DNA of 64,000 bases from Pseudosulfitobacter sp. DSM 107133 (GTDB taxonomy: Bacteria; Pseudomonadota; Alphaproteobacteria; Rhodobacterales; Rhodobacteraceae): assembly GCF_022788695.1 (NCBI RefSeq), contig NZ_CP085162.1:1-64000 (forward strand). Direction: 5' to 3'. The notes under the pieces were generated by a model that did not search any database, had not been told where the DNA came from, and was given only the letters and a program-made list of their open reading frames with translations. Positions 3,915 to 62,184 of the stretch are shown piece after piece (within the stretch, counting starts at the first letter, position 1; every line of letters starts with the position of its first letter). The translations under genes were made by a program, and so were the position numbers.

Positions 3915-6002
3915 CTAGTTTCCCGCCACCGTGTCGATGTCGAATTGCAGGATCGCAGGCGCCGGACCGCTGTCGTCCTCCAGCGCGACGGCCCCCCGCG
4001 TCACCTGACCGAAACCGGCATTGCGCAGCGACGCAGCAAAGCTGCTGTCCTGCGCGGCACCCCCACGCATCACCTCGACCGCGGACTGTCCCAGAAACCG
4101 CAGATCCTCGATGGCGGACTGTGGCTCGGCCGGTGTCAGGATCACCACCACGCGGTCGCGGCCAAAGGCCTCGTCAGTGATGCGGAACAGCCCCTTTTTC
4201 AGCGTGTCACCGGGTTGCAGCCGCCCGCTGTAGAAATGCGTGATCGCGTAATCCGACCCGATGTGCAGCACGTTGGCATCCACCGGAAACGCCTCGTTGT
4301 TCTGCGCCAGCACATGCACCTGATCGTCGGGCACCAGCACCGGCACCGCCACCGTGTCCAGATCGCGCAGGTCCCGCTGTTGGCGGGTCTTGGTTTGCAG
4401 GCGCAGGTCCACGTTCAGGTCGGTGTCGCTGTACTGTCCACCCATCCGCAGCAGGTTGATCGCGCGGCCCATCCGTTCCAGTGAATCCTGCATCAGCGCG
4501 GCCACCTCGGCGGGCTGCCGGTCGGTGGTGCCGACCGAAGGCGTTTGCGCGGCCTTGGACGGCTCGAAATACCCTGTGCCGGGCAACAGCCAGATTGCAT
4601 CGGGGCGCGTGCTGTCGGGCATCACCGCCAGCCGCACGTCGGCATCGGCCCCCGCAGGGACCAGCACCAGCCGCCCGCCCGCGTCCTGTTCCAGCAGGTC
4701 CAGCGTGGCCGTCACCACCGCCGGCACATCGCCATCGGGGCGCGCCACGCGCAGGGTGAAATCGACCACATCGGCCAGCTTGCGGGCATAGCTGCCTTTC
4801 GGCAGCTCCGCGACATCCAGCGCCGGCAGGCCCGCGTGCGCGACCGGCTCCAGCTCGGATGTGAAGGTGTCGGTGAACGTCACCTTGGCATAGCCCACGG
4901 CATCGCTGACGGCACTGGCGGCGGTGGGCAGCAGCGCGACAATCTCGCCCTCGGCGATGTGCTGCAACTGCCCCGCGCGCAGGGTCAGGCCAAAGGCCCC
5001 TTCGCGCACCGGCCACTGGTGGATCTGCTCGCCCGCCTCGCCCGAGAACACATAGCCGTCCAGATCGCCCTCGAACATGGGGGTGGACAGGGCCAGGTTC
5101 TGCACCGCGTATTTGCGCAGCACTTCCTGACCCAACTGGCGATAGGTCACGCCGGGGTTTTCGGCCAGGGTTTCAAAAATCGTATAGGTGAACACGCCCT
5201 GCGACACGCGTCCGGGCGCGCCACGGGGCAGACGTTTTTCCGGCGTCGTCTCGGTGGTTTGGGCTGCGAAAAACGCGATGAATGCGCCGTCGCCATTGCC
5301 GCCCTCGACCGGGCTGGCAGGGCGCGCGCGCGGGTCGGGCAGGGCGCGCGATGTCGCCTCGGCGTCGGCCATCGCGCTGTCAGGCACACCCAGAGCCGAC
5401 GGGTCCAGCTTGCGCATCCGCACCTCCTCGCCGTCCGCTGGGGCGGCGCGGGTGACGGTGCCGGAATGACAGGCGTCGAAGACCGCCCAGACGGTCGCGC
5501 CCTTGGCCCGCAGGCTGCCGATCAGCACGCCGATCTCGTCATCGACCAGCGCGTTTTCGACGCTGCCGACGCTGTCGTCCCACGCCCCGATGTCGACGGG
5601 CAGGAACATCTCGTCCAGCCCGTCCTCCTCGGTTTCAGGGTGCAGCGCGGGGGCCTGCGTGCCGTGGCCCGAGAAGTGCAAATAGACAAAATCGCCCGGA
5701 CCCACACGCGCCGCCATGGCGGCAAACCCGTCGCGGATGCCTTGCAAGGTCGGGCGCCCCGCGCCCTCGACGCCATCGGCCAGAACGGTCACGTTGTCGG
5801 CGGCAAAGGGCACCGGCGCGCTGTCCGTCAGATAGGTCCTCACCAAGGCGACGTCATTCGCAGGTCCTTGCAGCCAATACCGTTCCTCAAGGTTGTCATA
5901 GGTCGACGCGCCGATCAGCAGCGCAAAGTTTTCGGCCAGCGCGGGCAGGGGCACCAGCAAGCTCAGGGCGGTCAGCGCGGGGCGCAACACAGCGCGGCCC
6001 AT
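3915..6002 (-). CDS. Exported caspase-like peptidase (C14), copy 1
   Basis: This 695-residue protein starts with a signal peptide (residues 1-23, ending PALAEN) and a caspase/metacaspase p20-like domain. The catalytic His113 is in YLHFSGHGTQ and the catalytic Cys178 in FDACHSGT, spaced as in family C14. EEDGLDEMFLPVD between them is the usual substrate-loop region. The remaining 450 residues contain no domain I recognise and probably form beta-rich modules. The start at 6002 shares one base (TGATG) with the stop of the small PPC-like gene upstream, so the two are co-translated. The longer frame to 6095 is unlikely because it lacks a signal peptide. The substrate is unknown; many metacaspases cut after Arg or Lys. 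Confidence 0.85.
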   Translation of the reverse strand: MGRAVLRPALTALSLLVPLPALAENFALLIGASTYDNLEERYWLQGPANDVALVRTYLTDSAPVPFAADNVTVLADGVEGAGRPTLQGIRDGFAAMAARVGPGDFVYLHFSGHGTQAPALHPETEEDGLDEMFLPVDIGAWDDSVGSVENALVDDEIGVLIGSLRAKGATVWAVFDACHSGTVTRAAPADGEEVRMRKLDPSALGVPDSAMADAEATSRALPDPRARPASPVEGGNGDGAFIAFFAAQTTETTPEKRLPRGAPGRVSQGVFTYTIFETLAENPGVTYRQLGQEVLRKYAVQNLALSTPMFEGDLDGYVFSGEAGEQIHQWPVREGAFGLTLRAGQLQHIAEGEIVALLPTAASAVSDAVGYAKVTFTDTFTSELEPVAHAGLPALDVAELPKGSYARKLADVVDFTLRVARPDGDVPAVVTATLDLLEQDAGGRLVLVPAGADADVRLAVMPDSTRPDAIWLLPGTGYFEPSKAAQTPSVGTTDRQPAEVAALMQDSLERMGRAINLLRMGGQYSDTDLNVDLRLQTKTRQQRDLRDLDTVAVPVLVPDDQVHVLAQNNEAFPVDANVLHIGSDYAITHFYSGRLQPGDTLKKGLFRITDEAFGRDRVVVILTPAEPQSAIEDLRFLGQSAVEVMRGGAAQDSSFAASLRNAGFGQVTRGAVALEDDSGPAPAILQFDIDTVAGN

Positions 6003-6622
6003 CAGTTTGTGATCAGCGCATAATCGGCGCTGCTGCCGCTGGCGTTCTGCACCGCGATGGTGAAATCGCCGGTGCTGCGCGGGCTCCACCCGCAATAGGC
6101 GATGGCGCTGGAATCGGTGTCGGAACAGACCAGCCGCCCCTGAGCGTCGGTGACCTTCAGGTTCAGGTCGTTGCTGCCCTTGGCCTCGACATAAATCTCG
6201 GCATAGGTGCCGCCCTCGAAGGGCACGGCGCGATAGGTGTCGGTCTGGCCGCCGCCGATCCGCGCGTTGTTGTAGACCGGGCCGCTGACCACCCCCTTGG
6301 TGTTTTCGGATGCCACGTCGTCGATCAACCCCAGCATCATGTCGTCGCCTGCCGCCAGATCCCGCGCGGTGGCCAGCATCGCATCGGCATCCAGCGCGCC
6401 GTCGCCGGGGGTGCCATCCTCGGCCATGCGGTCGGTGGGGGACAGGCCCAGACCCCGGCGCATCTTGGCGGCGGCCAGCACCAGCAGCGGATCGCGGGTG
6501 GCGACGCCAGTGTCATAGATAACGCGGCTGGCTTCGGCCTGTTTCAGCGGCGCGGGGTCGGCGGCCAGCGCGGGCAGGGCCGACAGGATCAGGGCAGCGG
6601 TCAGGGTGGTGAAACGGGTCAT
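6002..6622 (-). CDS. Small exported PPC-like protein, copy 1
   Basis: This 206-residue protein has a clear signal peptide (MTRFTTLTAALILSALPALA). An alpha-helical segment with DADAMLATARDLAAGD is followed by a C-terminal beta-sandwich-like region resembling pre-peptidase C-terminal (PPC) domains: a YAEIYVEAKG strand, then NLKVTDAQG and DFTIAVQNAS. Two cysteines (LVCSD and AYCGW) could form a disulfide. It is a paralogue of the gene at 17627-18334, sharing DADAML, the cysteine pair and the ending LTN or ITN. It is the first gene of a two-gene operon with the caspase, with a ribosome site AAGGA before its ATG. I infer a binding or regulatory partner of the peptidase; there is no direct evidence. 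Confidence 0.7.
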   Translation of the reverse strand: MTRFTTLTAALILSALPALAADPAPLKQAEASRVIYDTGVATRDPLLVLAAAKMRRGLGLSPTDRMAEDGTPGDGALDADAMLATARDLAAGDDMMLGLIDDVASENTKGVVSGPVYNNARIGGGQTDTYRAVPFEGGTYAEIYVEAKGSNDLNLKVTDAQGRLVCSDTDSSAIAYCGWSPRSTGDFTIAVQNASGSSADYALITN

Positions 6623-6779
6623 GGGAACATCCTTGAAAATAGGTTTTGGTCTGGAATTAAGTCAAAGTTAGCGATGCATGCGCGACCTGCCAAGCGGGCG
6701 AATTTTCATGACGGCATTTTTCACATGTACGGGGGCGATTTCCGGTCTAGGGTTTGTGCAGATTGATGAAAGATTGTAT

Positions 6780-8063
6780 ATGCGTCTGATATTGCTTGTT
6801 ATTTTAATATGTATGGCGGCAGTGCCCCGCTTTGCCACCGCCCAGATGGCCCCACAGGCCGCCGCCCACGTGCTGGAGGCCACCCTGATGCTGCGCAGCG
6901 CCGACGGGCGGGACCGTTTCCTCGGCTCGGGCTTTGTCTTTGGCAGCAATGACCGCGCCGTGACCAACGCCCATGTGGTCGGCAAGGCCGCGCAGGTGGT
7001 GGTCGTGACCCAAGGCGGCACCCGCATCGACGCCACGGTGATCGCCGTGGACCCGCTGCGCGATCTGGCGGTGCTGCAACTGGCCACGCCGCACGATGCG
7101 GTGTTGCAGCCTGCGTCCGGCGTTGCGGTCGGGCAGGGGGTCTTTGCCACCGGCGCCCCGCTTGAGGCGGCGTTTACCCTGACGCAGGGGATCGTCTCGG
7201 CGCTGTCCCGCCAGATCGACTCGACGCAGCCCGTGGGCTATCTGCAACATTCCGCAGCCGTCAACCCGGGCAGCAGCGGCGGGCCGCTGGTGGATGCCGC
7301 AGGCGACGTTCTGGGCATAAACACCCGTATCAGTGACGGTTCGCGGTTCTTTGTCGGCATCGCTTACGCCGTGCCGGTGGCGGACGTAAGCGACTTTGTG
7401 GCGCGCGGCCCACTGCCCGAACATCCGCCGCTGGGCGTGCAACTGCGCCCGCTGGTCCCGCGGATCAAGGCGGCCTTGGGCTATGACGGCACCGGCGCGC
7501 TGGTGGAACAGGTGCAGCCCGACACACCCGCCGATCTGGCAGGGGTGCAGGCGGGCGATATCCTGACCATGGTGGATGATCATGCGATCACCATGCCGGG
7601 CGATCTGGCCTTTGCGCTGGCACAGGGGGGCGCAGAGGTGCGGCTGGGCGTGCAGCGGGGAAATCAGGCTCTGACACTGGTGGTTTCGCGTGTCGTGGTC
7701 CAATCCGACATCACCCCCGCCACCCCGCAACAGGTCCAGCGCCGCGATCAGTACAAGCTGACCGACATGGGGCTGGTTCTGGACCCCGACGGCACCATCC
7801 GCGCGGTTGTGAATCAGGGCGCAGGGTTCTTTGCAGGTCTCACGGGGGGCGACCGGATCGTCGCGATCAACGGCACCGCCATTACCGATCTGCCCGACGG
7901 TTGGACCCGCAATTTTACCTTTGACAGCGCGGTCTTGCTGCGCATCTCATTGCCGGACGGGGCGACGCGGCATTACCTGCTGGACCCGTGGGAGGACGGC
8001 CCGGCGCTGCGTCTGGCCAGCGGTGCCAACGTGCTGGACATGGAGGTGGTCAGCTTTGACTGA
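6780..8063 (+). CDS. HtrA/DegP-like serine protease with two PDZ-like domains
   Basis: This 427-residue exported protease has a signal peptide over residues 1-21 and a trypsin-fold domain with the triad His65 (TNAHVV), Asp95 (DPLRDLAVL) and Ser166 (NPGSSGGPL). Two PDZ-like regions follow, at about 238-310 (GALVEQVQPDTPADLAGVQAGDIL) and 340-410 (AGFFAGLTGGDRIVAING). HtrA proteases act in the periplasm on misfolded or signalling substrates. The frame opens at 6678, but the ATG at 6780 begins the signal peptide. It is divergent from the caspase/PPC pair across 157 bp and leads the two-component genes, so it may be the envelope sensor or processing arm of this cluster. Confidence 0.88.
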   Translation: MRLILLVILICMAAVPRFATAQMAPQAAAHVLEATLMLRSADGRDRFLGSGFVFGSNDRAVTNAHVVGKAAQVVVVTQGGTRIDATVIAVDPLRDLAVLQLATPHDAVLQPASGVAVGQGVFATGAPLEAAFTLTQGIVSALSRQIDSTQPVGYLQHSAAVNPGSSGGPLVDAAGDVLGINTRISDGSRFFVGIAYAVPVADVSDFVARGPLPEHPPLGVQLRPLVPRIKAALGYDGTGALVEQVQPDTPADLAGVQAGDILTMVDDHAITMPGDLAFALAQGGAEVRLGVQRGNQALTLVVSRVVVQSDITPATPQQVQRRDQYKLTDMGLVLDPDGTIRAVVNQGAGFFAGLTGGDRIVAINGTAITDLPDGWTRNFTFDSAVLLRISLPDGATRHYLLDPWEDGPALRLASGANVLDMEVVSFD

Positions 8064-8751
8064 GGCAGGCAGAATATTGATCGTCGAGGACGACGCCGAC
8101 ATGGCCCGCGCATTGGCCGAGGCATGTAGCGAACTGGGCTATACCCCCGTGTTAGAGACGACATGCGCCGCAGGGCTTGCCACCGCGCGAACGGGGCAGT
8201 TCCCGCTGGCGATCCTGGACCGGATGATGCCCGACGGCGACAGCATCGACATGCTGGCCGAACTGCGGCACGCGGGCACCATCGGCGCGATCCTGATGGT
8301 CAGCGCATTGGCGCACGCAGGCCACCGCAGTCACGGGCTGGACCGGGGGGCCGATGATTACCTTGCCAAACCCTTTGCCCCCGAGGAGCTGCGCGCCCGC
8401 ATCCGCGCGCTGGTGCGCCGGACCAAGGCACAGCCCATGGACAACGATTTTCTGGTGTTCGACGGGCTTGAAATCCGCGTCAAGGCGCGCACGGTGCATC
8501 ACGGACAGGATCATATTCCCCTGTCGCCCAAGGAATTCGAACTGTTGATGTATTTCGCCACCCACGCAGGCACCCCGCTCAGCCGGATGCAGCTGCTGGA
8601 ACACGTCTGGAACCTGCATTTCGATCCGCAAACCAATGTGGTCGACGTGCATGTGGGCCGGTTGCGCCGCAAGCTGGAACAGCACACCAACCGCGCGTGG
8701 ATCCACACCGCACGCGGGGCGGGCTATTGGTTCGGGCCGGACGGGGCATGA
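8056..8751 (+). CDS. OmpR-family response regulator
   Basis: This 231-residue regulator has an N-terminal receiver domain with acidic pocket EDD (11-13), phospho-acceptor Asp55 (LAILDRMMPDG) and the conserved Lys in YLAKPF, then a winged-helix DNA-binding domain (LSPKEFELLMYFATHAG to VDVHVGRLRRKLE). I place the start at the TTG at 8056, inside the last codons of the HtrA gene, because GGAGG lies at 8042-8046 at good spacing and the product then begins with the family-typical TEAGRILIVEDD. The first ATG (8101) would cut into the receiver domain. It is coupled to the kinase by an ATGA overlap. Likely targets are the divergent promoters at 6623-6779; that is inference. Confidence 0.88.
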   Translation: MTEAGRILIVEDDADMARALAEACSELGYTPVLETTCAAGLATARTGQFPLAILDRMMPDGDSIDMLAELRHAGTIGAILMVSALAHAGHRSHGLDRGADDYLAKPFAPEELRARIRALVRRTKAQPMDNDFLVFDGLEIRVKARTVHHGQDHIPLSPKEFELLMYFATHAGTPLSRMQLLEHVWNLHFDPQTNVVDVHVGRLRRKLEQHTNRAWIHTARGAGYWFGPDGA

Positions 8752-10073
8752 GGAACGGCACCTTCCGTTCGGTCGCGCTGGTGGCGCTGGTGCCGCTGGT
8801 GATGGCGGTGGCGGGGGTGCTGGTGCTGCAATCGCAGTTGCGCGCGCGGCTGGTCGAGGCTGTGCAGACCCGCCTGCTGGCCGAGGCGCAGGGGTTTGCC
8901 GCCCTCTATGACCAGCGCCGCATCGTCGCCCTGCGCGAGGCGATCGCCTATCGCAGCACGCGCGGCGACCCTGCGGGCAGCGTCTATGTGCTGACCGACC
9001 GGGCGGGCGCGGTGCTGGCGGGCAATCTGGACGGCTGGCCCGATGGCATCGCGGTGCAGGACACCGCGCAGCAGGTCCAGATCGACGGGCGCCCCTATCT
9101 GGCCCGTGCGCAGGACTTGCGCGGCGGCTTTGGCCTGTTGGTGGGGGTCAGCCTGTTGCCGGTGGAACAGACGCTGGCCCAGATGCGCCGCGTCTTTGCC
9201 GCCTTTGGCCTGGCGATGCTGGTCGCGGGGCTGGCCGCCGCATGGGGCGTGGCGCGGCAGGCACAGTGGCGCACGGCGCGGATGAACGCGGCGCTGGCGC
9301 AGGTCGGCGGGGCAGGGGGCCTGGGCCTGCGGATGCCGCGCGAGGGCGGGTCGGAACACGCCGAACTGGCCGACCACATCGACGCCATGCTGGCACGCAT
9401 CGCGCATCTGTTCGACGCGCATCAACGGTTGGGCAACGCGGTGGCCCACGAAATGCGCACACCGCTGGCCCGCATCCGCACGCGGCTGGACGCGCTGGAT
9501 CTGGACGCGGTGGCGCGCGCGGGGCTGGACGACGAGATCCGCGCCACGATCCGCCTGTTCGACAGCCTGCTGAGCATCGCGCAAATGGACGCCGAGGCGG
9601 GCAATACCACCACGCTGCATCCCGTCGATCTGGGCCAGATCGCCGCCGGTATCGTCGAGCTGTACCAGCCCGTCGCCGAGGAAGAGGGGCGCAGGATCAC
9701 CACGCAAATCGACCCTGACACGCAGATATTGGGCGATGAGCACCTGTTGGCACAACTGCTGTCCAACCTGATCGAGAACGGCCTGAAATACACCCGCCCC
9801 GGCGACACCATCGCCGTCACCGTCCGTCGCGACGGGGCCAAGGTGCGCCTGCGCGTGCAGGACGACGGGCCGGGGGTGGACGCGACGTTGCGCGAACAGT
9901 TGTTCACGCCCTTTGCACGCGGCTTTGACACGGGGTCGAAACCGGGGCACGGGCTGGGTCTGTCGCTGGTGCGGGCGATTGCATTGCGCCACGGGGCGAT
10001 CCCGCGTGCGCCCGCCACCGAAAAAGGATTTGCAATCGAAGTCGAAGCCTTGCATTTTTCCACGCAGGAATAG
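8748..10073 (+). CDS. Membrane sensor histidine kinase
   Basis: This 441-residue kinase has two membrane segments (about residues 8-28 and 142-166) enclosing a periplasmic sensor loop of roughly 110 residues. A HAMP-like linker, a HisKA domain with His234 in GNAVAHEMRTPLARIRTRLD and a HATPase_c domain with N box LSNLIENGLKYT, G1 box DDGPGVD and G2 box GHGLGLSL follow. The ATG at 8748 overlaps the regulator stop. The sensor loop has no domain I recognise. Its position between exported proteases suggests that it senses an envelope signal and controls this cluster. Confidence 0.88.
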   Translation: MRNGTFRSVALVALVPLVMAVAGVLVLQSQLRARLVEAVQTRLLAEAQGFAALYDQRRIVALREAIAYRSTRGDPAGSVYVLTDRAGAVLAGNLDGWPDGIAVQDTAQQVQIDGRPYLARAQDLRGGFGLLVGVSLLPVEQTLAQMRRVFAAFGLAMLVAGLAAAWGVARQAQWRTARMNAALAQVGGAGGLGLRMPREGGSEHAELADHIDAMLARIAHLFDAHQRLGNAVAHEMRTPLARIRTRLDALDLDAVARAGLDDEIRATIRLFDSLLSIAQMDAEAGNTTTLHPVDLGQIAAGIVELYQPVAEEEGRRITTQIDPDTQILGDEHLLAQLLSNLIENGLKYTRPGDTIAVTVRRDGAKVRLRVQDDGPGVDATLREQLFTPFARGFDTGSKPGHGLGLSLVRAIALRHGAIPRAPATEKGFAIEVEALHFSTQE

Positions 10074-10114
10074 CTGCTTAATCCATTTTCCACATGCGCT
10101 TGGGGGCGCCTGAA

Positions 10115-11569
10115 ATGATTCATATCCGGCTTTGCACGGCGCTGTTCTGCGCCATGGTTCTTGCGGCCTGCTCGGCGCTGAACCCGCCGATCAACCCCTA
10201 TCTGGCCGACCCCGGATCGGTGCAGGAACCCGCATTCGGCGGCAACCTGATGGGGCGGGACGACGTGTTCATCGGGCTGGCCTTTTCCGGGGGCGGCACG
10301 CGGGCCTCGGCGTTTTCTTACGGGATGCTGAAGGCGCTGCGCGATGCCACGCGCACGGCGGAAAACCCCGACGGGTTGTTGCAACATGTGCGGCTGGTCA
10401 CCGGCGTGTCGGGCGGGTCGGTCACGGCGGCCTATTACGGGCTGCACGGGCCGCGGGGGCTGGATGTCTACCGCGAACAATACCTGATCCAGAACGCCGA
10501 AAAATACATGGCCACCGCCGTGTGGAACCCGGTGACGCTGGTCAAGGGGCTGTCGGGCGGGGCCAACGGGCGCAAGACCTTTGCGCGGTTCCTGGATGAA
10601 AGCATCCTGCACAAGGCCACCTTCCGCGACCTGTGGGCCAAGGGCTATGCGACGACGTGGATCAACGCCTCGGACGTGGCGAACAACACGCCGTTCCTGT
10701 TCTCGCAGGAAACCTTTGACGCGCTGTGTTCCAATCTGGCCGATCTGCCCGTGTCCGAAGCTGTTGCCGCCTCGGCCGCCTTTCCGCTGGTGTTCGCGCC
10801 GATCACGCTGGCCGCGCACCGCGAAGGCTGCGATTATTCCGAACCCGACTGGCTGACCGCGGCGCGGTTCAATCCCGAAAGCACCTCGGCGCTGCGGGCT
10901 TATGGCAAGGCGCTGGAAACCTACCGCGACCCGGACAAGATCAAGCTGGTCAAGCTGCTGGACGGCGCGATCACCGACAATTTCGGCACCACGGGTTTGT
11001 CGGTGGCGCGGGTGAAATCGCAGACCGCTTACGGCCCGATGACCGAGGAACAGGCCGTACGCGTCAACCGCATGTTGTTTCTGGTGGCCAACGCGGGCGT
11101 GCAGCAGGATTACAAATGGAACCAGCGGCTGCGCGGTCCGGGCGGGGTGCAGCTGGGAATGGCGATTGCCAATTCGTCCATGGGGGCGGCGACGCGTGTG
11201 GGCTATGACGTGCTGCGGCTGACGCTGGACCAATATGCCGACGACCTGATCGACTACCGGTGCAGCCTGTCTGCCGCGCGGGTGCGGGCGTTGCGCGGGT
11301 CGCTGGCGGGCTGGGATTGCAAGGACGTGAAACTGTTCGTGGGGCAGGTGTCGTTCGAGGTGCTGGACAACGACCAGCGCGACGATCTGAACGAAATCCC
11401 CACGCGCCTGCGGCTGGAAACGCCACAGGTGGACGCGGTGATTGCGGCGGGCGAACAGGCGACGCGGCTGACGCCGGAATTCAACGGCTTTCTGCGCGCG
11501 ATTGACGCAGTGCCCGCCCCTGCGGATGCGCGGCGCATCGGGGCGCGGCGGATCACGCCGGGGAACTGA
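10115..11569 (+). CDS. Patatin-like phospholipase lipoprotein
   Basis: This 484-residue protein has a lipoprotein signal peptide with lipobox LAAC, so it should be anchored in the envelope. The patatin fold is visible as the oxyanion loop FSGGGTRA, nucleophile Ser99 in GVSGGS and catalytic Asp283 in DGAITDN, the Ser-Asp dyad of patatin-like acyl hydrolases. Family members release fatty acids from phospholipids. The ATG at 10115 starts the lipobox signal; the frame opens at 10094. It sits between the sensor kinase and the second caspase-like gene on the same strand and is the only obvious membrane-damaging candidate in the cluster. Confidence 0.85.
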   Translation: MIHIRLCTALFCAMVLAACSALNPPINPYLADPGSVQEPAFGGNLMGRDDVFIGLAFSGGGTRASAFSYGMLKALRDATRTAENPDGLLQHVRLVTGVSGGSVTAAYYGLHGPRGLDVYREQYLIQNAEKYMATAVWNPVTLVKGLSGGANGRKTFARFLDESILHKATFRDLWAKGYATTWINASDVANNTPFLFSQETFDALCSNLADLPVSEAVAASAAFPLVFAPITLAAHREGCDYSEPDWLTAARFNPESTSALRAYGKALETYRDPDKIKLVKLLDGAITDNFGTTGLSVARVKSQTAYGPMTEEQAVRVNRMLFLVANAGVQQDYKWNQRLRGPGGVQLGMAIANSSMGAATRVGYDVLRLTLDQYADDLIDYRCSLSAARVRALRGSLAGWDCKDVKLFVGQVSFEVLDNDQRDDLNEIPTRLRLETPQVDAVIAAGEQATRLTPEFNGFLRAIDAVPAPADARRIGARRITPGN

Positions 11570-11785: not shown

Positions 11786-13759
11786 ATGATGACGCGACTG
11801 ATCCCTTTGCTGCTGGCTCTGTGGCCGCTTGGCACCCACGCCGAAACCCGCGCGGTTCTGGTGGGGGTGGGGGATTATCTGTATCTTGATGCGGATTTGC
11901 AGGGGCCGGTCAACGACGTGGGCCTGATGGCCGACACGCTGATGCGGCGCGGTGTCGCGGCGGCGGCGATCACGGTGCTGTCTGACGCGGCGGCGCGGGT
12001 GCCCGATGGCGCGGTGCGCGGGCTGCCGGACCGTGTGGCGATACTGGACGCCCTGGGCGGGGCGATTGCGGCCTCGGCCCATGGCGACACGGTGGTGTTC
12101 TATTTCTCGGGCCACGGCGCGCAGGCCCCCGACCTGAACGGCGACGAGGGCGGCGGCATGGACGAGATTTTCCTGCCCCGCGACACGCGCGGCTGGAACG
12201 GTGGCATCGGTGCGGTCGAAAACGCGATTCTGGACGACGAATTCGGCACCTTCACCGAACAGGCCGCAGCACAGGGGGTGCAGCTGGTGGCGATCCTGGA
12301 CGCCTGCCACTCGGGCACCGGCTTTCGCGCGGGGCCAGAGACGGACGTGCGGGCGCGGTATATCACGCCGGCACAGCTTGGCCTGCCTGACGATCAGGTC
12401 AGCGATGCGGTGGGGCAGGGGCAGGCCCCCGCAGGCGACTATGTGTTCCTTTATGCGGCGCAGTCCGACCAGCGGGCGTTTGAATACCCCGTCGGTGACG
12501 CGCGCCTGTGGCACGGCGATTTCACCCGTGCGCTGACCTCGGTCATGCAAGAGGTGCCCGACATCACCTATACCGCCCTTGTGCAAGCCGCCGCCGCGCG
12601 GATGCGCACGGCGGGCGGGCAGGCGGCGCAGACGCCCGATGTCGAGGGACCGCTGGCAGATGCGCCGGTGATCGGCGGCGATGCGCCCGGACTGTTGCGG
12701 ATGCAGGTCGACGGCCAGACCCTGCGCGCGGGGCTGCTGGGCGGCGTGACCAAAGGCAGCATCGTGGCGCTGTACGCGGGACAGCTGGACGACAGCCCCG
12801 CCGGTCAGGCCGAGGTGACGCAAGTCCGCGCGACCGAGGCGGATTTGCGGTATCTGGAACCCTTTCCGACCGAGAAGGTCGCCTATGCCCAGATCACCGA
12901 CCGCGCGCTGGACACCTCGATCGCGCTGAACTTCAGCGCCGAGGCGCAGGCGCATCTGACGGATGGGTTTGACGCGCTGGCCGCGCGCGTGGACGTGCCG
13001 CTGGACGCCGCCACCCCGTCGCACCGCGTGGTCTGGGACGGGGCGCAATTTGCGCTGATCGGTCCCGATGGCGTGCTGGACGCGGGCGGTGACGGCACCA
13101 GCATCCGGCTGGGCGCGGGCGATACCGACGCATTGGCGCAGCGCATCGGGCTTGCCGTGGGACGCTTGCGGCTGGAAAAGGCGCTGGCGCAGATGGCGCA
13201 GGGGGCGGTCAAGACCGGCTTTGCCCTTGGCCCCACCGGCCCGACCGTCAGCTTTACCCTGACCGCGGGGCGGATGCGCGGCGGCAAATGCGCCACGCCC
13301 GACGGCACGCCGCAGCCGGTGACCGGACGGGCCAGCGCGCACAGCTGCGATGTGCTGGGCCTGCGCTATGACAACACCACCGGCGGGATGCAGGACGTGA
13401 CGGTCCTGTACATCAACGCCGACAACAGCATCGACACGCTGTGGCCCACCCGCAACCTGTCGAACAGGATCGAGGCCGGCGGCAGCCAGCAGATGGACTT
13501 TGCGCTGGTGGCCGATGCGGTGCTGCATGAACAGGTGATCGTGGTGTCGGTCCCCGCAGACCCCGGCAGCATGCGCACCACCCTTGCCTTTCTGGGCGGC
13601 GGCGGATTGCCCGCCAGCAGCATGGGGGCTGTGGCCGAATATATGGCCAGCGTCACCGATCCGGCGCAAAGCCGTGGATTTTCACTGAAACCCAAGGGCG
13701 CGGACCTGTCGGTACACCGGCTGGACCTGACCCTGACCCCATTCCAAACAGGAGACTGA
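11786..13759 (+). CDS. Exported caspase-like peptidase (C14), copy 2
   Basis: This 657-residue protein has a signal peptide (MMTRLIPLLLALWPLGTHA) and a caspase-like domain with His110 (FYFSGHGAQ) and Cys174 (LDACHSGTG). As in copy 1, a GGGMDEIFLPRD segment lies between the catalytic residues. The C-terminal 400 residues share the general arrangement of copy 1 and include a beta-rich stretch with two cysteines (GKCATP and HSCDVL) and a late segment reading DNSIDTLWPTRNLSN, which recalls DUF4384-like modules of other bacterial caspases. The trypsin gene starts 5 bp after the stop, with AGGAG in the last caspase codons. The pairing of a caspase with a trypsin zymogen is noteworthy. Confidence 0.87.
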   Translation: MMTRLIPLLLALWPLGTHAETRAVLVGVGDYLYLDADLQGPVNDVGLMADTLMRRGVAAAAITVLSDAAARVPDGAVRGLPDRVAILDALGGAIAASAHGDTVVFYFSGHGAQAPDLNGDEGGGMDEIFLPRDTRGWNGGIGAVENAILDDEFGTFTEQAAAQGVQLVAILDACHSGTGFRAGPETDVRARYITPAQLGLPDDQVSDAVGQGQAPAGDYVFLYAAQSDQRAFEYPVGDARLWHGDFTRALTSVMQEVPDITYTALVQAAAARMRTAGGQAAQTPDVEGPLADAPVIGGDAPGLLRMQVDGQTLRAGLLGGVTKGSIVALYAGQLDDSPAGQAEVTQVRATEADLRYLEPFPTEKVAYAQITDRALDTSIALNFSAEAQAHLTDGFDALAARVDVPLDAATPSHRVVWDGAQFALIGPDGVLDAGGDGTSIRLGAGDTDALAQRIGLAVGRLRLEKALAQMAQGAVKTGFALGPTGPTVSFTLTAGRMRGGKCATPDGTPQPVTGRASAHSCDVLGLRYDNTTGGMQDVTVLYINADNSIDTLWPTRNLSNRIEAGGSQQMDFALVADAVLHEQVIVVSVPADPGSMRTTLAFLGGGGLPASSMGAVAEYMASVTDPAQSRGFSLKPKGADLSVHRLDLTLTPFQTGD

Positions 13760-13764
13760 CCCAA

Positions 13765-14805
13765 ATGAGATTTCTACCCGCAGTGATGGCCGCATTGGCC
13801 CTGCCGCTGGCGCTGAACGCGCAGACGCTGGAATTGCCCGAAACACCCCCCGCGCAGGCGTCGCCCTTTGCCTTTGCCGAAAGCGGCGCCAAGGCCGAGG
13901 CCGCGGCACAGCAGGCCGACAGCGCAGGCCGTGTGATCGGCGGTGAAGAGGCCGCCGAGGGCGCGTGGCCCTGGCAGGTGGCCCTGTTGATCGCGGGCCA
14001 GCCCCGGACCGTGGACGCGCAGTTTTGCGGCGGGTCGATGGTGCTGGACACATGGGTTCTGACGGCGGCGCATTGCATCCACATGCAGGACCCCAACGGC
14101 GTCTACCGTGACCTTGCCCCGCGGGCGATTTCGGTGCTGGTCGGCACCAACGAGATTGCCGAAGGCAAGGGCGACGCGGTGCCGGTCGAGGCGATCTATC
14201 GCCATCCCGGCTATGAAGGGACCGAGTTCGACAACGACATCGCCCTGATCAAACTGGCCCGCGCGCCCAAGGTGCCTTACCAGACGATCAAGGTGCCGGA
14301 TGCCGCGTTCGGCGACCTGCTGGACCAGCCCGGCGTGCGCACCGTCGTCACCGGCTGGGGCCTGATCGAAGGCGCGAAACGCACCGAGATGATGCGTCAG
14401 GCCGAGATCCAGATGCTGTCGCGCGACCAGTGCAACCAGGTCATGCTGGAAGGCCGCGCCAAGGCCGCCGCCGAGGGGCTGAGCTATGCCGCCAAGGCGT
14501 TCGGGCTGAAGGACAGCGAGGCCGAGAAGGTCTGGCAGGAGCTGATCACCTATGTCCGCGAACCGATGACCGAAAACATGATCTGCTCGGGCACCTTTGG
14601 TGGCGGCAAGGGGTCATGCTCGGGTGACAGCGGCGGGCCGCTGGTGGTGCCGCTTGAGGACGGGACGTTCATTCAGGCGGGTATCGTCAGCTGGGGTCTG
14701 AGCAATCAGGCCACACAGTCCTGTCTGGAAACGGCGCAATTCTCGGCCTATACGCGGGTGTCGAATTACCTGCCGTGGCTGGACCAGACGATCAACGCGA
14801 ACTGA
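13765..14805 (+). CDS. Trypsin-fold (S1) serine protease zymogen
   Basis: This 346-residue exported protease has a signal peptide (residues 1-19), a 36-residue Ala/Glu-rich propeptide and a classical activation site, Arg56 before VIGG. The triad is His103 (LTAAHC), Asp158 (FDNDIALIKL) and Ser289 (GDSGGPL). The residue six before Ser289, which sets specificity in trypsin, is Gly rather than Asp, so trypsin-like Arg/Lys preference is unlikely. A helix-like insertion of about 45 residues (225-270) separates DQC from MICSG. If it cannot cut after Arg, another protease must remove the propeptide, and the adjacent caspase-like enzyme is one candidate. Its stop shares a base (TGATG) with the next start. 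Confidence 0.9.
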   Translation: MRFLPAVMAALALPLALNAQTLELPETPPAQASPFAFAESGAKAEAAAQQADSAGRVIGGEEAAEGAWPWQVALLIAGQPRTVDAQFCGGSMVLDTWVLTAAHCIHMQDPNGVYRDLAPRAISVLVGTNEIAEGKGDAVPVEAIYRHPGYEGTEFDNDIALIKLARAPKVPYQTIKVPDAAFGDLLDQPGVRTVVTGWGLIEGAKRTEMMRQAEIQMLSRDQCNQVMLEGRAKAAAEGLSYAAKAFGLKDSEAEKVWQELITYVREPMTENMICSGTFGGGKGSCSGDSGGPLVVPLEDGTFIQAGIVSWGLSNQATQSCLETAQFSAYTRVSNYLPWLDQTINAN

Positions 14806-17489
14806 TGGGCGCGCGGTCCTGCATCTTGGCACTGGTGCTGGCGGTTGGGCTGGCACCTGCTGCTGTGGCGCAGGACCATACGCCCGACAGCTATGCCGAA
14901 TGGATCCTGAAACGTTCGAAGGCTATACAGGATGCGTTCTATGGCGGCAGGCGCGCCGAGGCCATGGCCGCCGCCGAGGCGTTGAACACCGAAGTCGACA
15001 AATATGCCGATTTCATGGGCGATCACAAAGGGTTCTGGGTGCCTGACCTTCTGGTGACGCGGCTGGCGATCAGACTGCGGTACTATGAACAGGCCGCCGA
15101 AGTGGCCGCGCCGATGGTCACCGCACTGGACACGCCCGCCGAACACGGCGGCGCGATGCGGGTCGAGGCGATGCTGCTGTTGGGGCAGGCGCTGTATTAC
15201 CTGAAAGACTATACCGCCGCCGAAGCGGTGCTGCGCAGCTTTGTGTCACTGGGGCTTGAGCCGGGCACGCATGTGGATGGCAAAGACATCACCGAGGCGT
15301 CCTATTTGCTGGCGCAGGCGGCGACCCGTGCGCTGGCCCCTGACGCGGCGGAAATCCGGCGCGATTTGCTGGACGGGTTTCTGGACCGCCCTGGCGGCAC
15401 CGACGGTCTGTACCTGCGGCTGTGGCTGCTGGATTTTCAGGCCCGCCGCTCGAACGAGACCCACGCCCCCGGACTGTTGGACGACGCCCGTCTGGTCGCT
15501 GATTTCATGAAAACCTCGGACGAAGGCGACATGGCCGAATACCAGCTGTTGTATGGAATGCTGGGCCGGATTTTTGCCGACAACAAAGACTTTGACCGCG
15601 CGATTCCGATCCTTCAGGCCCGTATGGATCACATGCGCGCGCACGCGCCGGGCTCGCGCGAATATTTCTGGGCCTCGCAGAACCTTGCGGGGATTCGCAA
15701 CCTTCAGCATGATTTTCCCGCCGCCCTGCGCACCGCGCAAGCGGCACTGCGCGAACTGGATGCGGTGCCCGGCGGGCAGGACGAAGAATTTGCGCCCGTC
15801 CGCTCGGCGCTGGAACAGGTGATCTGGATTGCCGCGCTTCAGATGGGCGAGGCGCTGATCGCGCAAGAGGCGCTTGAGCGGGCCTATGTCGCGGTGCGCC
15901 AGACGCGGTCGGCGAACAACCCTGCGGCGCAGGAACTGGCTGCCGAAATGGACAAGGCGCTGGTGGATCCGGCCCGCTTTGTCTATGCGGGCGAACTGGG
16001 TCTGGACCGCCCCGGCGAGCTGTTTCTGACGGCAGACGGTGCCGATGTGATTTCGGCCTTTCTTGCGGGGCGTTATGCGCTGATTTCGCAAGTGCTGGCG
16101 CGCGCGGATGCGGCGAAGGAGGTGCCGACGGCGATAGTTGCACTGAACCGCGCCTTTCTGGCGGCGATGCTGGGCGATGTGGGGGAAGGGCAGGCGCAGC
16201 TGGCCCGCGCGCGCAAGGCGGCTGCCGAGGAGGAAGAGGACCAGTTGGCGGCCGACGCATGGGAGCCGGATTTCGCAGAAGCGTTGTTGATGCTGTATGC
16301 GCGCATCTATGACGTGGACCAGGCACTGCCGCCGCTGGCGCGGCTTGAGGCGCGCGATGACCTGCCCGACATGATACAGGCCAACGTGCGGATGCTGCGC
16401 GCGACGCAATCGTTTTATGCGGGCGACATTGCGGCAGCGGCACAGGTCTATTTTGACCATGCGGATGCGGATTTTGCCCGTGTCACGACAGAACCCTGGG
16501 GCGTTGTCCTGGGGTTGGGGCTGTTGAACATGGCGCTGGAACTGGATGATCTGGAACGGGCGCGGACTTTTGTGGTTGCCTTTTCAGAGCAGCTTGAAGC
16601 AACGCCCGACCGTGGGCTGGCGCTGGTCAGCACCCAGATGTTCGCGCTGAACGCCGACCCCGACGCGATGCTGACCGAACGGGGCTTTCAGACGATGGCG
16701 TTTCATCTGCGGTCGCTGGCGTCGATGCTGCCAGAGGAACACCAGTGGAGCATTGCGGCGCGCTTCGCCTATGCCTCGGCGCTGTCGCAGCGTGGCGAGG
16801 TGGCCGAAGCCGCGGAATTGACCCGCGGGGCGCTGGAAAGCTATCGCAAGTCGCCCTGGCATCAGGAAGGCACGGCGGCGTTTCTGTCGGTGTCCTATGG
16901 CTGGCTGGTCTGGGGCAGCGGCAACCCGGAACTGGCGCAAAGCATCATTTCGCAGGCCTATCACGCGCGCGATCCCGAAACATGGGGGCCTGCCTATTGG
17001 GCCGAAGTCTGTCAGGCGCAGGCCTTTGCGCGCACGTTTCAGGGGCGGCTGGACGAGGCCCGCACCGTGATCGAAGAGGCGCTGGGGCAGACCGAGATGA
17101 TGGCCAGACTGACCCCGCCCAACACCATGCGCTTGCGGCTGCAATACGCCGATATTCTGGCCCAGTTGGGAGAAAGTGAACAGGCCGCCGTTGCCTTTGA
17201 CAGCGCTGTCGCTGCGGTGCCTTATCCTGAATACAAGGGGGGCCAGACCATGACCGAAGCCCTGCGCAAACGCGCGACCTTTCACCACAACCAGTCGCAA
17301 CCGCAGGCGGCCTATGCCGACATCGCGCAGTCGAACGCATTGTGGTTCGATCGCTATGACCGCTATGCCACCGACGGGGCGCAAGTGGCGCGCCAACCCT
17401 TCGAGGACCGCGCGCGCGCGGTGGACGAGGCGGTGTTTGGCTGGGTTCTGAGCCAGTCGCTGGCAGAAATTCAACCCCAGCAAGAATAA
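14805..17489 (+). CDS. Large exported TPR-like repeat protein
   Basis: This 894-residue protein begins with a signal peptide (MGARSCILALVLAVGLAPAAVAQ) and is then almost entirely alpha-helical, with pairs of helices of the tetratricopeptide type, such as QALYYLKDYTAAEAVLRSF, AIPILQARMDHMRAHAPG and AARFAYASALSQRGEVAEAAELTRGALES. No catalytic motif is seen. TPR proteins are scaffolds, and in other bacterial protease systems TPR domains gate caspase or CHAT peptidases. The start at 14805 shares a base with the trypsin stop; the frame opens at 14775. I infer a periplasmic scaffold or regulator for the proteases. Confidence 0.75.
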   Translation: MGARSCILALVLAVGLAPAAVAQDHTPDSYAEWILKRSKAIQDAFYGGRRAEAMAAAEALNTEVDKYADFMGDHKGFWVPDLLVTRLAIRLRYYEQAAEVAAPMVTALDTPAEHGGAMRVEAMLLLGQALYYLKDYTAAEAVLRSFVSLGLEPGTHVDGKDITEASYLLAQAATRALAPDAAEIRRDLLDGFLDRPGGTDGLYLRLWLLDFQARRSNETHAPGLLDDARLVADFMKTSDEGDMAEYQLLYGMLGRIFADNKDFDRAIPILQARMDHMRAHAPGSREYFWASQNLAGIRNLQHDFPAALRTAQAALRELDAVPGGQDEEFAPVRSALEQVIWIAALQMGEALIAQEALERAYVAVRQTRSANNPAAQELAAEMDKALVDPARFVYAGELGLDRPGELFLTADGADVISAFLAGRYALISQVLARADAAKEVPTAIVALNRAFLAAMLGDVGEGQAQLARARKAAAEEEEDQLAADAWEPDFAEALLMLYARIYDVDQALPPLARLEARDDLPDMIQANVRMLRATQSFYAGDIAAAAQVYFDHADADFARVTTEPWGVVLGLGLLNMALELDDLERARTFVVAFSEQLEATPDRGLALVSTQMFALNADPDAMLTERGFQTMAFHLRSLASMLPEEHQWSIAARFAYASALSQRGEVAEAAELTRGALESYRKSPWHQEGTAAFLSVSYGWLVWGSGNPELAQSIISQAYHARDPETWGPAYWAEVCQAQAFARTFQGRLDEARTVIEEALGQTEMMARLTPPNTMRLRLQYADILAQLGESEQAAVAFDSAVAAVPYPEYKGGQTMTEALRKRATFHHNQSQPQAAYADIAQSNALWFDRYDRYATDGAQVARQPFEDRARAVDEAVFGWVLSQSLAEIQPQQE

Positions 17490-17626
17490 GGGGCATCTTC
17501 CGCCAAAGGTAAGGTATTCCTGACGGTGTTTGTCATAAAAAATGTCTGGAAAACGCGCAGTTACGCTGACATGATCTTATCAATTGCCTAACCCTGAACT
17601 GTCTTTAATTGAAAGGATTTCTACTG

Positions 17627-18334
17627 ATGACACGCACCACTTTAATCTCGATGATGGGGGCCGCAGCCCTTGCGATGGCACCGATCACGGGTTTTGCACA
17701 GGACAAGTCCGGCGAGAATGTGCAGCCCACCGAAGCCACCGCCGAGGTCAGCGCCGTTGGCAAGGTCGCGCTGGCACAAGACCTGTTCGCCTATGCGCAG
17801 GAGGGCAAGAATGCCGTCGCCGCGCTGGCCGCTGCGCAGATCATGCAGGGGGTCGATGCCAAGGATGTCGAGCGTGAAAAAACCACCTCTGACAACGAAG
17901 ACATGGCCGGAGTGACAGAAGAGGCCGACGGGGCCGATGCGCCGATGGACGCCGACGCCATGCTGACAGCCGCGCTGGAATATGCGGGCGGTGATCCTGC
18001 CGTGACCGGCCTGATCGAGGACGCGCAGGCCGAAGGTTCGCGGGGCCGTATCGGGGGCGCGTCGCGCACCCTGTCGCGACTGCCCGCGGGCAAGGTCGAC
18101 CTGTTCAAAGTGCCCTTCTACGGCGGCCGTTTTGCCGAGCTGGCTATTGTGGGTGACGGTGATGCGAACCTTGACCTGCTGGTCACCGACGAGAACGGCA
18201 ACACCATCTGTCTGGACAAGACCTATACCGACAAGATCTATTGCTCGTTCACACCGGCATGGGACGGGTATTTCCTGGTTGCCGTGGCCAACCAGGGCCG
18301 CAAGCGCAACAGCTATTACATCCTGACCAACTGA
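17627..18334 (+). CDS. Small exported PPC-like protein, copy 2
   Basis: This 235-residue paralogue of the protein at 6002-6622 has a signal peptide (ending ITGFAQ), an acidic low-complexity middle (about residues 85-110, rich in Asp, Glu and Ala) and a C-terminal beta-sandwich-like region with LDLLVTDENGN and YFLVAVANQG. The cysteine pair (NTICLD and KIYCSF) is conserved with copy 1, and both end in an LTN-like tail. The ATG at 17627 has GAAAGGA 9 bp upstream; a TTG at 17609 is less likely. It lies 8 bp before the CHAT gene, just as copy 1 abuts a caspase, so each PPC-like protein is paired with one cysteine peptidase. Confidence 0.7.
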   Translation: MTRTTLISMMGAAALAMAPITGFAQDKSGENVQPTEATAEVSAVGKVALAQDLFAYAQEGKNAVAALAAAQIMQGVDAKDVEREKTTSDNEDMAGVTEEADGADAPMDADAMLTAALEYAGGDPAVTGLIEDAQAEGSRGRIGGASRTLSRLPAGKVDLFKVPFYGGRFAELAIVGDGDANLDLLVTDENGNTICLDKTYTDKIYCSFTPAWDGYFLVAVANQGRKRNSYYILTN

Positions 18335-18342
18335 GGCCGGGC

Positions 18343-20037
18343 GTGATTGCCCACACAATAACGGGGCGCGCGGGGGCAATCCTGCGCGCCTTGTTTATAT
18401 GCGGGGCCTGTTTGTGGGCCACGGGGGGGCTGGCGCAACTGACCCCGGCACAGACGCGGGAACAGATCCGCGACGACGTGTTCCTGACGCTGCAACGTGC
18501 CACTTCCAGCGTGGCGGGCGCGGCGTTGCAGCAGGCGGCGCTGCGACAACAGGCGGGCAATGCCGCGCTGGCGGCCTTGCTGCGTGAACGCAGCGACCTG
18601 AGTGACCGCGCCGAAGCCGACCAGGGCGCGCTTGCCCATGCGGTCGGCACCCGCGGCGCCGCCGCCGAGGCCGAGATCGACCGCGCGCGCGCCAGTCTGA
18701 ATGACATCCGCCGGCAGATCGCCGCATTGGATGCGCGCATTGAAGACGGGTTTCCGGCGTTTCGCGAGCTGACCAACCCGCGCCCGATGAGCGTGGCCGA
18801 AGTGCAGAAAACCCTGCATCCGGGCGAGGTGATGATTGTCACGCTGACCTCTGAATTTGACTCCTTTGTCTGGGCGATTTCGCCTGACGCAGCCGACTGG
18901 CATGCGGCCAATTTCGAACAGGACGCGTTGGTGGCGCAGATCAGCCTGCTGCGGCGGATGCTGGACGTGACGACTCAGAACCGCTCGGCGGCGGCGCTGG
19001 AGGAGGACACCAGCATCGGCGTGTCGGCAGACGGCTTTGACCGCGCGGTTGCCTATGGATTGTATCAAAAGCTGCTGGCCCCGCTGGCGGCGGTCATTGA
19101 CGGGGCGGACCATCTGATCGTGGTGCCGGACGGGCCGTTGACCGCGCTGCCCTTTGGCTTGCTGGTGGCCAGCGCGCCCGTGGGCGACGATGCAGACCCG
19201 CAGGCGCTGCGCGACACCGATTGGCTGATCGGGCGGGCGGCAATGACGGTGTTGCCCAATGTGTCCAGCCTGCGGGCCTTGCGGCGCAAGGTGGACAAGA
19301 CCGATCTGGGTGGGCCGCGCCGCCCGTTTGTGGGCTTTGGCGATCCGGTTTTTGCCTATCGCGACAGCGATGCGCCGACCGGCATGGTGACGGACGGCGC
19401 CTATGTCAGTCGCGGCGTGTTCGAACAGTTGAGCGGTGTGGCGGGGTTGGCGCCGCTGCCGGGCACCGCGCGGGAACTGCGGCGGCTGGCGCAGCTGACA
19501 GGCGCTGCCGCGACGGATCTGTTTCTGGGGAGCGCGGCCACGGAAACCGCTGTGCGTGGCGCGGATTTGCGCGATGTGGATATCGTCGCCTTTGCCACCC
19601 ACGGGCTGCTGGCGGGCGAGCTGTCGGGGCTGGCGGAACCTGCACTGGTGTTCACCCCGCCGGGCGCGCCGGGGCCGCAAGACGATGCGTTGCTGACCGC
19701 GACCGAGGCGGCGGGGCTGCGGCTGTCGGCGCAATTGATTATCCTGTCGGCCTGCAACACCGCCTCGGGCGATGGCACGCCGGGGGCCGAAGGGCTTTCG
19801 GGTTTGGCGCGGTCGTTCATCTATGCGGGGGCGCGGTCGATACTGGTGTCGCACTGGCCGGTGGATGATTATGCGACCTCGGTGCTGACCACGGGCATGG
19901 TGGCCGAAATGCAGGCCGGGGTGCCCCGTAGCGCTGCGCTGCGCCGGTCGATGCTGCGGCTGATGCGGGACGACCCACAGGTGAAATACGCGCACCCGCG
20001 CTATTGGGCGCCGTTTATTCTGGTGGGCGATGGTTGA
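18343..20037 (+). CDS. Exported CHAT-domain cysteine peptidase, copy 1
   Basis: This 564-residue protein is a CHAT peptidase, a caspase-related fold. The dyad is His420 (FATHGLLAGE) and Cys471 (ILSACNTASGDG), and the usual following segments GLSGLARSFIYAGA and LVSHWPV are present. The N-terminal part has an export signal (ILRALFICGACLWATGGLAQ) and a helical region with a coiled-coil-like stretch (about 70-140). I use the GTG at 18343, 8 bp after the PPC-like gene; the frame extends upstream but overlaps that gene. The likely ccdA promoter overlaps its stop codon. Confidence 0.85.
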   Translation: MIAHTITGRAGAILRALFICGACLWATGGLAQLTPAQTREQIRDDVFLTLQRATSSVAGAALQQAALRQQAGNAALAALLRERSDLSDRAEADQGALAHAVGTRGAAAEAEIDRARASLNDIRRQIAALDARIEDGFPAFRELTNPRPMSVAEVQKTLHPGEVMIVTLTSEFDSFVWAISPDAADWHAANFEQDALVAQISLLRRMLDVTTQNRSAAALEEDTSIGVSADGFDRAVAYGLYQKLLAPLAAVIDGADHLIVVPDGPLTALPFGLLVASAPVGDDADPQALRDTDWLIGRAAMTVLPNVSSLRALRRKVDKTDLGGPRRPFVGFGDPVFAYRDSDAPTGMVTDGAYVSRGVFEQLSGVAGLAPLPGTARELRRLAQLTGAAATDLFLGSAATETAVRGADLRDVDIVAFATHGLLAGELSGLAEPALVFTPPGAPGPQDDALLTATEAAGLRLSAQLIILSACNTASGDGTPGAEGLSGLARSFIYAGARSILVSHWPVDDYATSVLTTGMVAEMQAGVPRSAALRRSMLRLMRDDPQVKYAHPRYWAPFILVGDG

Positions 20038-21670: not shown

Positions 21671-21680
21671 TCCAGACCTC

Positions 21681-62020: not shown

Positions 62021-62184
62021 TACGTCGTCTCTGTTGTGGGCGGGGCCATGGGGCGGTTCTGTGCAGGTTCCGTGCTAATCAGAATTCAGAACCAAAGTCG
62101 AGCGGTTGCGCACATAGGCGCCGCGCGGCAGGGACAGCATTTGTCACTTGACCCCCACAGCGGCGGCCACGAACACTCGCGCTT

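Follow-up and report, generated by a model that had tools for sequence, protein, structure and literature searches.

In bacteria, effectors of the caspase, CHAT and trypsin types have mostly been treated as intracellular parts of conflict systems, and the question raised by the window analyzed here, a stretch of 64,000 nt from Pseudosulfitobacter sp. DSM 107133 (contig NZ_CP085162.1), is whether such enzymes may also form one signal-controlled system outside the cytoplasm. An initial annotation had read eleven consecutive genes at 3915–20037 as a protease cascade in which nine products carry export signals. Based on open reading frames, Pfam matches and the annotation of sister plasmids, the eleven genes were confirmed and were found to form two divergent units: casp1-PPC1 (minus strand) and HtrA-RR-HK-patatin-casp2-S1-TPR-PPC2-CHAT (plus strand), in which casp1 and casp2 denote two caspases, RR a response regulator and HK a sensor histidine kinase. 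The single run of tightly overlapping genes described initially thus holds for the gene content but not for the arrangement, as gaps separate some neighbours (HK-patatin, 41 nt; patatin-casp2, 216 nt; TPR-PPC2, 137 nt). Comparison with relatives indicates that the genes are most likely a real, conserved set of exported proteases that belongs to one two-component regulon.

By aligning casp1, 84 relatives were obtained from the GTDB genome set and 80 loci were kept, nearly all from Rhodobacteraceae or unclassified alphaproteobacteria, plus Ahrensia and two Rhizobiaceae metagenome-assembled genomes (MAGs), according to record titles. Among the 65 casp1 loci having at least 9 kb upstream of casp1, the order casp1-PPC1 // HtrA-RR-HK was kept exactly in 55, and two further loci differed from it only by a casp1 or HtrA gene called in pieces. 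On this upstream side, PPC1 was found in 60 loci, HtrA, RR and HK in 57 each, casp2 in 47, patatin in 45, S1 in 44, PPC2 in 19, TPR in five and CHAT in four. The cluster order recurs in other genera at approximately 38–63% amino-acid identity, and a chance assembly was rejected on the basis of this conserved synteny, which together with the common promoter box described below supports the claim of one system. The initial annotation had held that homologues usually lying apart would speak for chance; this is not the case for casp1, PPC1, HtrA, RR, HK, casp2 and S1, whereas TPR and CHAT are often unlinked to casp1 or absent, and no CHAT match was found anywhere in 12 of 39 casp1 genomes.

Within the family, 30 of 394 genomes (approximately 8%, patchily distributed) carry casp1 at E≤1e-99. 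Nineteen of them have casp2 within 11 kb, four have a more distant second caspase (confirmed as casp2 by profile in two cases), one has no second match, and the remaining six are undecided because of contig ends or only two scored candidates per genome. The cluster lies on ~80-kb plasmids of Pseudosulfitobacter pseudonitzschiae; 46 PLSDB records, all of that genus, match the TPR protein, and three annotated sister plasmids show the gene row, interrupted between patatin and casp2 by two additional genes. It is not restricted to plasmids, as six of the 80 loci are on contigs >1 Mb. By their source fields, the plasmid strains originate from sea water and from algal material, and record titles place several hosts among Tabrizicola and relatives of ponds, lakes or reactors.

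A regulatory box, TGACnGnnTTTGTCA, was found upstream of casp1 in 60 of 62 loci with RR and HK and in none of the seven loci without the pair (Fisher, 3e-8, kinship ignored). This count comprised the 69 loci whose DNA upstream of casp1 spans 4 kb or more (11 of the 80 being dropped), the box lying within 2.6 kb upstream of casp1, and the two misses were L042 and L064. When five of the seven no-box genomes were searched for HK, no close one was found (best E 4e-36 to 2e-16), compared with E≤2e-82 in four control genomes. The 67 PPC1/HtrA promoter sequences, three of which are second copies of another locus, have TGACnGnnTTTGTCATGTG in common, with half-sites TGAC and TGTC that start ten bases apart and are also readable as an inverted repeat; the ten-base spacing would suit an OmpR-type regulator.

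A position weight matrix (PWM) built from 64 promoters of <500 bases detected 107 sites scoring >12 in 1.97 Mb (loci L024–L027 and L040–L139, some rows being the same genome twice), while 20 column-shuffled matrices yielded 0–4 sites each over L040–L139. Seventy-five sites fell in the divergent promoter and 32 elsewhere, including 17 upstream of casp2, six upstream of PPC2 and one upstream of CHAT; the rearranged Ahrensia locus has one box each upstream of casp1 and of RR. Among six other sites, three precede a small probable membrane protein, one (L045) is followed ~0.5 kb further on by a TPR-like gene, and the remaining two are unexplained. That membrane protein, of ~140 aa and encoded downstream of casp1 with a box upstream (L084:12397–12807, L085:12854–13264 and L090:12217–12651), is a possible further regulon member. 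Control by a signal, as initially proposed, is thus probably exerted through the linked pair, given the common box and the lack of it in loci without the pair, and we consider it highly probable that the genes form one two-component regulon, a confidence slightly lowered by the control of remote sites in genomes without the pair.

Such remote sites were surveyed with the exact pattern TGACNGNNTTTGTCA, which occurred 108 times in 33 casp1 genomes versus six times for the reversed control; 36 of the sites, distributed over 20 genomes, are no more than 25 kb from casp1, and the other 72 are remote. Of the latter, 11 are just upstream of PPC-family genes and four upstream of CHAT genes, namely three TPR-CHAT fusions (L143–L145) and a CHAT gene belonging to a detached casp2 module (L133). 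Profile-free clustering of the proteins downstream of 71 remote sites returned PPC as the largest group and TPR-CHAT as the next, and five remote PPC genes (L191, L200, L208, L209 and L215) encode the N-terminal part only. In five genomes without the pair, none of 11 remote sites precedes a family gene, a number that is too small for significance alone and that fits the regulon model. The excess of TGACNGNNTTTGTCA over its reversed control is large also outside the cluster and extends to genomes that lack the pair. A 134-aa exported-looking protein outside the PPC group is encoded ~100 nt downstream of a box in Fertoeibacter niger (L149:1530–1934).

Export was evaluated with a home-made signal-peptide heuristic run over orthologues, and nine products, in addition to the membrane kinase, are predicted to leave the cytoplasm. 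Signal peptides were predicted in 70/74 orthologues of casp1, 69/74 of PPC1, 61/66 of HtrA, 45/47 of patatin, 44/50 of casp2, 59/66 of S1 and 24/24 of PPC2, compared with 6/68 for the cytosolic RR, while the signal was weaker in CHAT (10/14) and TPR (4/8). These counts uphold the nine exported products, CHAT and TPR less firmly, and HtrA together with the lipoprotein-like patatin suggests the periplasm as their location.

The catalytic residues are near-invariant across orthologues: the His-Cys dyad is kept in 76/76 for casp1, Cys in 51/51 and His in 50/51 (one gap) for casp2, S99/D283 in 47/47 for patatin, the catalytic residues in 51/51 distinct sequences for S1, and the dyad in 17/17 for CHAT. 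In HtrA, the catalytic H/D/S are present in 60/61/61 of 65 distinct orthologues, and degenerate copies exist. HtrA combines a trypsin-like domain with PDZ and a predicted export signal, as expected for the HtrA/DegP type, and scores 213 bits against 416 for TIGR02037, below the cut-off of this DegP model. Both caspases exceed the PF00656 cut-off and contain the p20 domain with its His-Cys dyad, and the best-scoring solved relatives of both are metacaspases. One caspase set conserves Asp50/Asp176 and the other Asp44/Asp172, residues that presumably line the caspase S1 pocket. Because of the metacaspase similarity and these conserved Asp pairs, casp1 and casp2 are predicted to cleave after Lys/Arg; cutting after positively charged residues is described for orthocaspases in the cited part of PMC6426788.

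The P1 residue of the S1 activation site is Lys in 30 and Arg in 21 of 51 distinct sequences, followed by Val in 50/51, while residue 189 (aligned to Asp189 of tryptase) is Thr in 45, Gly in four, Leu in one and Asp in one. Since 50/51 lack Asp189, trypsin-type cutting by S1 of its own Lys/Arg activation site is not expected. The zymogen is probably activated by another protease, the metacaspase-like caspases being the best candidates, and we regard the chances that a caspase activates S1 as evenly balanced. The cascade claimed initially is what we infer from the Lys/Arg activation site, the missing Asp189 and the adjoining metacaspase-like enzymes, and among mechanisms it is the best-supported prediction. 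Its supposed end in lipid damage or remodelling looks weak, as patatin is missing from the flanks of 20/65 loci.

The name PPC in the initial annotation did not find support in Pfam, as no PPC model appeared among the hits of 37 PPC1/PPC2 family members; a PDB sequence comparison gave no useful match, and one relative is annotated ‘Peptidase C-terminal archaeal/bacterial’. PPC1 has Lys or Arg at 109 in 75/75 and Gly next to it in 75/75, and its C-terminus is exactly Asn in 74/74, mostly as YALMTN-COOH; PPC2 has Arg in 22 and Gly in 23 of 26 at this joint and ends in Asn in 20/21. Cleavage at the [KR]-G joint and reading of the C-terminal tail by a PDZ domain are hypothesized from these features. 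Sequence divergence within the genus was highest in TPR, for which the synonymous divergence (dS) was 0.59–0.70, versus 0.07–0.20 for casp1 to S1, in all three pairwise comparisons of the window with two sister plasmids and of these with each other. The change is abrupt and falls at the S1/TPR joint; PPC2 and CHAT of the window are also divergent (dS 0.46–0.51). Positive selection was not seen (nonsynonymous to synonymous ratio, dN/dS, at most 0.28), and the TPR gene is an exchanged allele under purifying selection. Such exchange is compatible with, and no proof of, a role in recognition.

Our best reading, which we hold with slightly better than even confidence, is an inducible extracytoplasmic protease switch organized as one regulon. 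The membrane HK would sense an envelope or external signal, and the OmpR-type RR would bind the TGACnGnnTTTGTCA box and turn on casp1-PPC1 and, in a positive loop, HtrA-RR-HK, as well as casp2-S1 where a box exists, PPC2 and the CHAT genes, in some genomes at distant sites. Periplasmic caspases would cut after Lys/Arg, activating the S1 zymogen at [KR]-V-[IV]-G-G, and would probably also cut the PPC proteins at the conserved [KR]-G joint; the TPR protein, as the exchanged allele, would probably supply the target or trigger of CHAT, and patatin, where present, would attack membrane lipid. The likeliest purpose would be a defence or self-damage response at the envelope, which we put forward tentatively, as a preference and not as a result. 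Of the initial interpretation as a whole, one exported and probably signal-controlled system stands, with the cascade as a prediction and the lipid damage doubtful. An unlikely but far-reaching extension would be a coagulation-like periplasmic zymogen cascade, in which one sensor acts through the caspases on S1 activation and on the splitting of PPC at Lys/Arg-Gly, the PDZ of HtrA reads the free PPC1 C-terminus and feeds back on the kinase, and the interchangeable TPR allele sets the CHAT response; if true, apoptotic or immune proteolysis would have a counterpart outside the cytoplasm.

Several observations weigh against the inducible switch. Not all members are universal near casp1: counting both flanks of the 65 loci, CHAT was found in 10, TPR in five, patatin in 45 and PPC2 in 20, and extending 20 regions further out revealed TPR in six and CHAT in five. 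The boxes of the window are weaker than most (19.7, 11.7 and 9.2), none scoring >7 was found there before casp2, S1, TPR, CHAT1 or patatin, and the box before the second CHAT gene, at 11.7, compares with 21.7 before the CHAT of a sister plasmid. As many as 57/72 remote sites do not precede a family gene, and remote sites are equally frequent without the pair (11 in five genomes versus 72 in 33), therefore most of them are not the RR’s; in the window genome and two of its genus, 0/9 remote sites are before a family gene. One remote site precedes a MotA/TolQ/ExbB-family gene (TolQ by eye; L152, ~base 1981, Rhodobacter sp. SY28-1), and tolQ is, in the part of PMC9275681 cited, a target of CenR in Rb. 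sphaeroides, whose motif TGA-N8-TGA shares its TGA half with the box. In addition, sister plasmids SC33-90 and H46 carry the same TPR allele (dS 0.04), and the low dN/dS given above points to purifying selection on all genes. Likewise, no casp1 relative was encoded in any of 69 viral-contig stretches that matched a pattern, and phage cargo was rejected on this basis.

The alternative that survives best, although rather unlikely, is accessory envelope maintenance, in which the HK would sense a misfolded or damaged envelope, and HtrA, the caspases, S1 and CHAT would clear or remodel proteins and lipids of the surface harmlessly in a Cpx- or CenKR-like manner, albeit with unusual proteases. It agrees with the presence of HtrA, RR and HK upstream of casp1 in 57/65 loci each, with the CenR-like TGA half and the site before the TolQ-like gene, with purifying selection throughout, and with the six loci on contigs >1 Mb; the patchy occurrence in ~30/394 family genomes, the plasmid location in Pseudosulfitobacter and the TPR allele exchange argue against it, and a caspase plus S1 plus CHAT exceeds, in our judgement, the known needs of quality control. 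It is improbable that the box is read by a global regulator such as CenR and that the proteins are co-regulated without acting on one another. The remote sites, mostly away from cluster-family genes and as numerous without the pair, and the likeness to the CenR half-site would follow from such control, but the box is missing upstream of casp1 in 7/7 loci without the pair, even though CenKR is conserved in alphaproteobacteria according to the cited part of PMC9275681; moreover, the second half-site differs (TTTGTCA, not TGA), and the RR-HK pair travels with the caspases. As a binder of the box, CenR may nevertheless be left standing as a candidate beside RR. Exported enzymes for antagonism, algal interaction or extracellular protein and lipid digestion would suit the export signals and the marine and algal sources of the plasmid strains but are very improbable, as Pfam matched none of the eleven proteins to a secretion domain or a known immunity domain, HtrA and the lipoprotein-like patatin suggest the periplasm, and several of the hosts, Tabrizicola and relatives, come from ponds, lakes or reactors. 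If the inducible protease switch is correct, a conserved regulon of exported proteases controlled by a two-component system would mean that caspase-type proteolysis takes place in the envelope, would give alphaproteobacterial orthocaspases a testable pathway of signal, regulator box, zymogen and substrate, and would offer a bacterial protease-activates-protease cascade.

Gene starts in the table follow sister-plasmid annotation for casp1 (6002) and HtrA (6780) instead of the longest open reading frames. The cluster adjoins a Rep3 initiator and ParA-/ParB-like genes at the start of the 65,426-base contig, and a second CHAT gene, CHAT2, sits with its partner on the other side of these replication and partition genes. 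The region delimited initially therefore contains the cluster but is too narrow, as CHAT2 has a box of its own, albeit a weaker one.

Table. Features of the protease cluster and the second CHAT gene in the window (bits, Pfam match scores; box scores from the PWM)
Feature	Position	Strand	Description
casp1	3915..6002	-	Exported C14 caspase, metacaspase-like, H113/C178; PF00656 55.8 bits
PPC1	6002..6622	-	Exported two-part protein, putative fold, no Pfam hit; invariant [KR]-G at 109-110, invariant C-terminal Asn
Box variant TGACGGCATTTTTCA	6705..6734	+	PPC1/HtrA divergent promoter; score 19.7
HtrA	6780..8063	+	HtrA-like exported serine protease with PDZ; Trypsin_2 (PF13365) and PDZ_6
RR	8056..8751	+	OmpR-family response regulator, TTG start; Response_reg and Trans_reg_C; length as in sister-plasmid annotation
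HK	8748..10073	+	Membrane sensor histidine kinase; HATPase_c; HisKA 25.3 bits, under the 26.9 cut-off
Patatin	10115..11569	+	Patatin-like phospholipase; PF01734 66.4 bits; lipobox-like LAAC (by eye); S99/D283
Very weak candidate box (tentative)	11709..11738	-	Upstream of casp2; score -4.7
casp2	11786..13759	+	Exported C14 caspase, metacaspase-like, H110/C174; PF00656 75.0 bits
S1	13765..14805	+	S1 serine protease zymogen; PF00089 160 bits; activation site R56-VIGG; residue 189 Gly
TPR	14805..17489	+	TPR protein; TPR_12; exchanged allele relative to two sister plasmids
Box TGACGGTGTTTGTCA, exact pattern	17517..17546	+	Upstream of PPC2; score 9.2
PPC2	17627..18334	+	Exported PPC1 paralogue, 30% identity to PPC1
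CHAT (CHAT1)	18343..20037	+	Exported CHAT protease, H420/C471; PF12770 200 bits
Box variant	62128..62157	+	Upstream of CHAT2; score 11.7, under the cut-off of 12 used elsewhere
CHAT2	62185..63771	+	Second exported CHAT protease; PF12770 191 bits
CHAT2 partner, start	63768..64000	+	Exported, perhaps TPR-like (weak TPR matches); continues to base 65204 of the contig

Beside the cluster, the minus strand encodes a DUF6976 protein (20669–21724; Pfam match 450 bits), for which no link to the cluster was seen, and an ABC uptake set of ATPase, FecCD permease and periplasmic binding protein (22019–24977; Pfam). Among the relatives, a related compact set without the pair, consisting of caspase, S1 protease and CHAT but not of all three everywhere, was observed at L029 and L164–L168. 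At six loci where the caspase match is intermediate (E 1e-58 to 1e-75), the two-component pair is absent, and caspase occurs with S1 in five and with CHAT in five, one CHAT match being weak and one contig ending early; neither combination was found at seven more distant caspase loci. In Primorskyibacter aestuariivivens, three tandem TPR proteins lie between S1 and CHAT (L137:1309–9202). One record titled as an Exiguobacterium profundum MAG (L060, CP059262.1) carries a Rhodobacteraceae-type cluster, and its name looks wrong.

No description of the cluster was found in the open-licence literature searched, in agreement with the initial annotation, in which no described system with this combination was known. 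A known anti-phage system was rejected, as a PADLOC scan of nine proteins (all but RR and HK) returned single-gene matches (caspase 72–76 bits, RT-Protease_XI 48, PDC 21–24, Phospholipase 19, BovA 16) and no complete system. In the parts of PMC10907252 and PMC8195603 cited, bacterial caspase, CHAT and trypsin effectors are mentioned in conflict systems, in the former source with some periplasmic sensors. The EACC1-associated conflict systems (NCBIfam NF047832; same sources) have caspase and trypsin-type effectors as here, yet casp1 and casp2 score 33.1 and 35.9 bits against the NF047832 cut-off of 140, and, unlike those systems, Pfam found no NTPase domain among the eleven proteins except the kinase ATPase. 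Craspase of type III-E CRISPR, with TPR-CHAT (Csx29), resembles the cluster, as far as the source consulted describes it, in a CHAT protease working with TPR repeats; here the proteins are predicted to be exported, TPR and CHAT are separate (fused in some relatives), and no Cas domain, hence no Cas7-11, was found by Pfam among the eleven proteins, to which that search was confined within the genome.

Closer in content are the bacterial metacaspase/orthocaspase operons, which sometimes have several C14 enzymes beside other proteases, and which in four Rhizobium strains include a protease plus protease-inhibition operon (PMC3501461); the C14 enzymes are shared with the present cluster, and the cited sections describe no two-component pair, S1 zymogen, CHAT, patatin, PPC set or common box. 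The LypABC set of Caulobacter (PMC13236601) is likewise an alphaproteobacterial peptidase set, toxic when overproduced and needed for lysis, but is portrayed in the part cited as CARD-NLR-like with an ATPase, whereas the proteins here look exported and show no CARD-like domain or NLR-type ATPase among the eleven (Pfam). On the regulatory side, the envelope two-component system CenKR of Rhodobacter shares an OmpR-family regulator, a TGA half-site and envelope targets with our model; as the cited part of PMC9275681 presents it, CenKR is essential, conserved and directed to a TGA-N8-TGA repeat, whereas the pair described here is accessory, tied to proteases and associated with the box TGACnGnnTTTGTCA.

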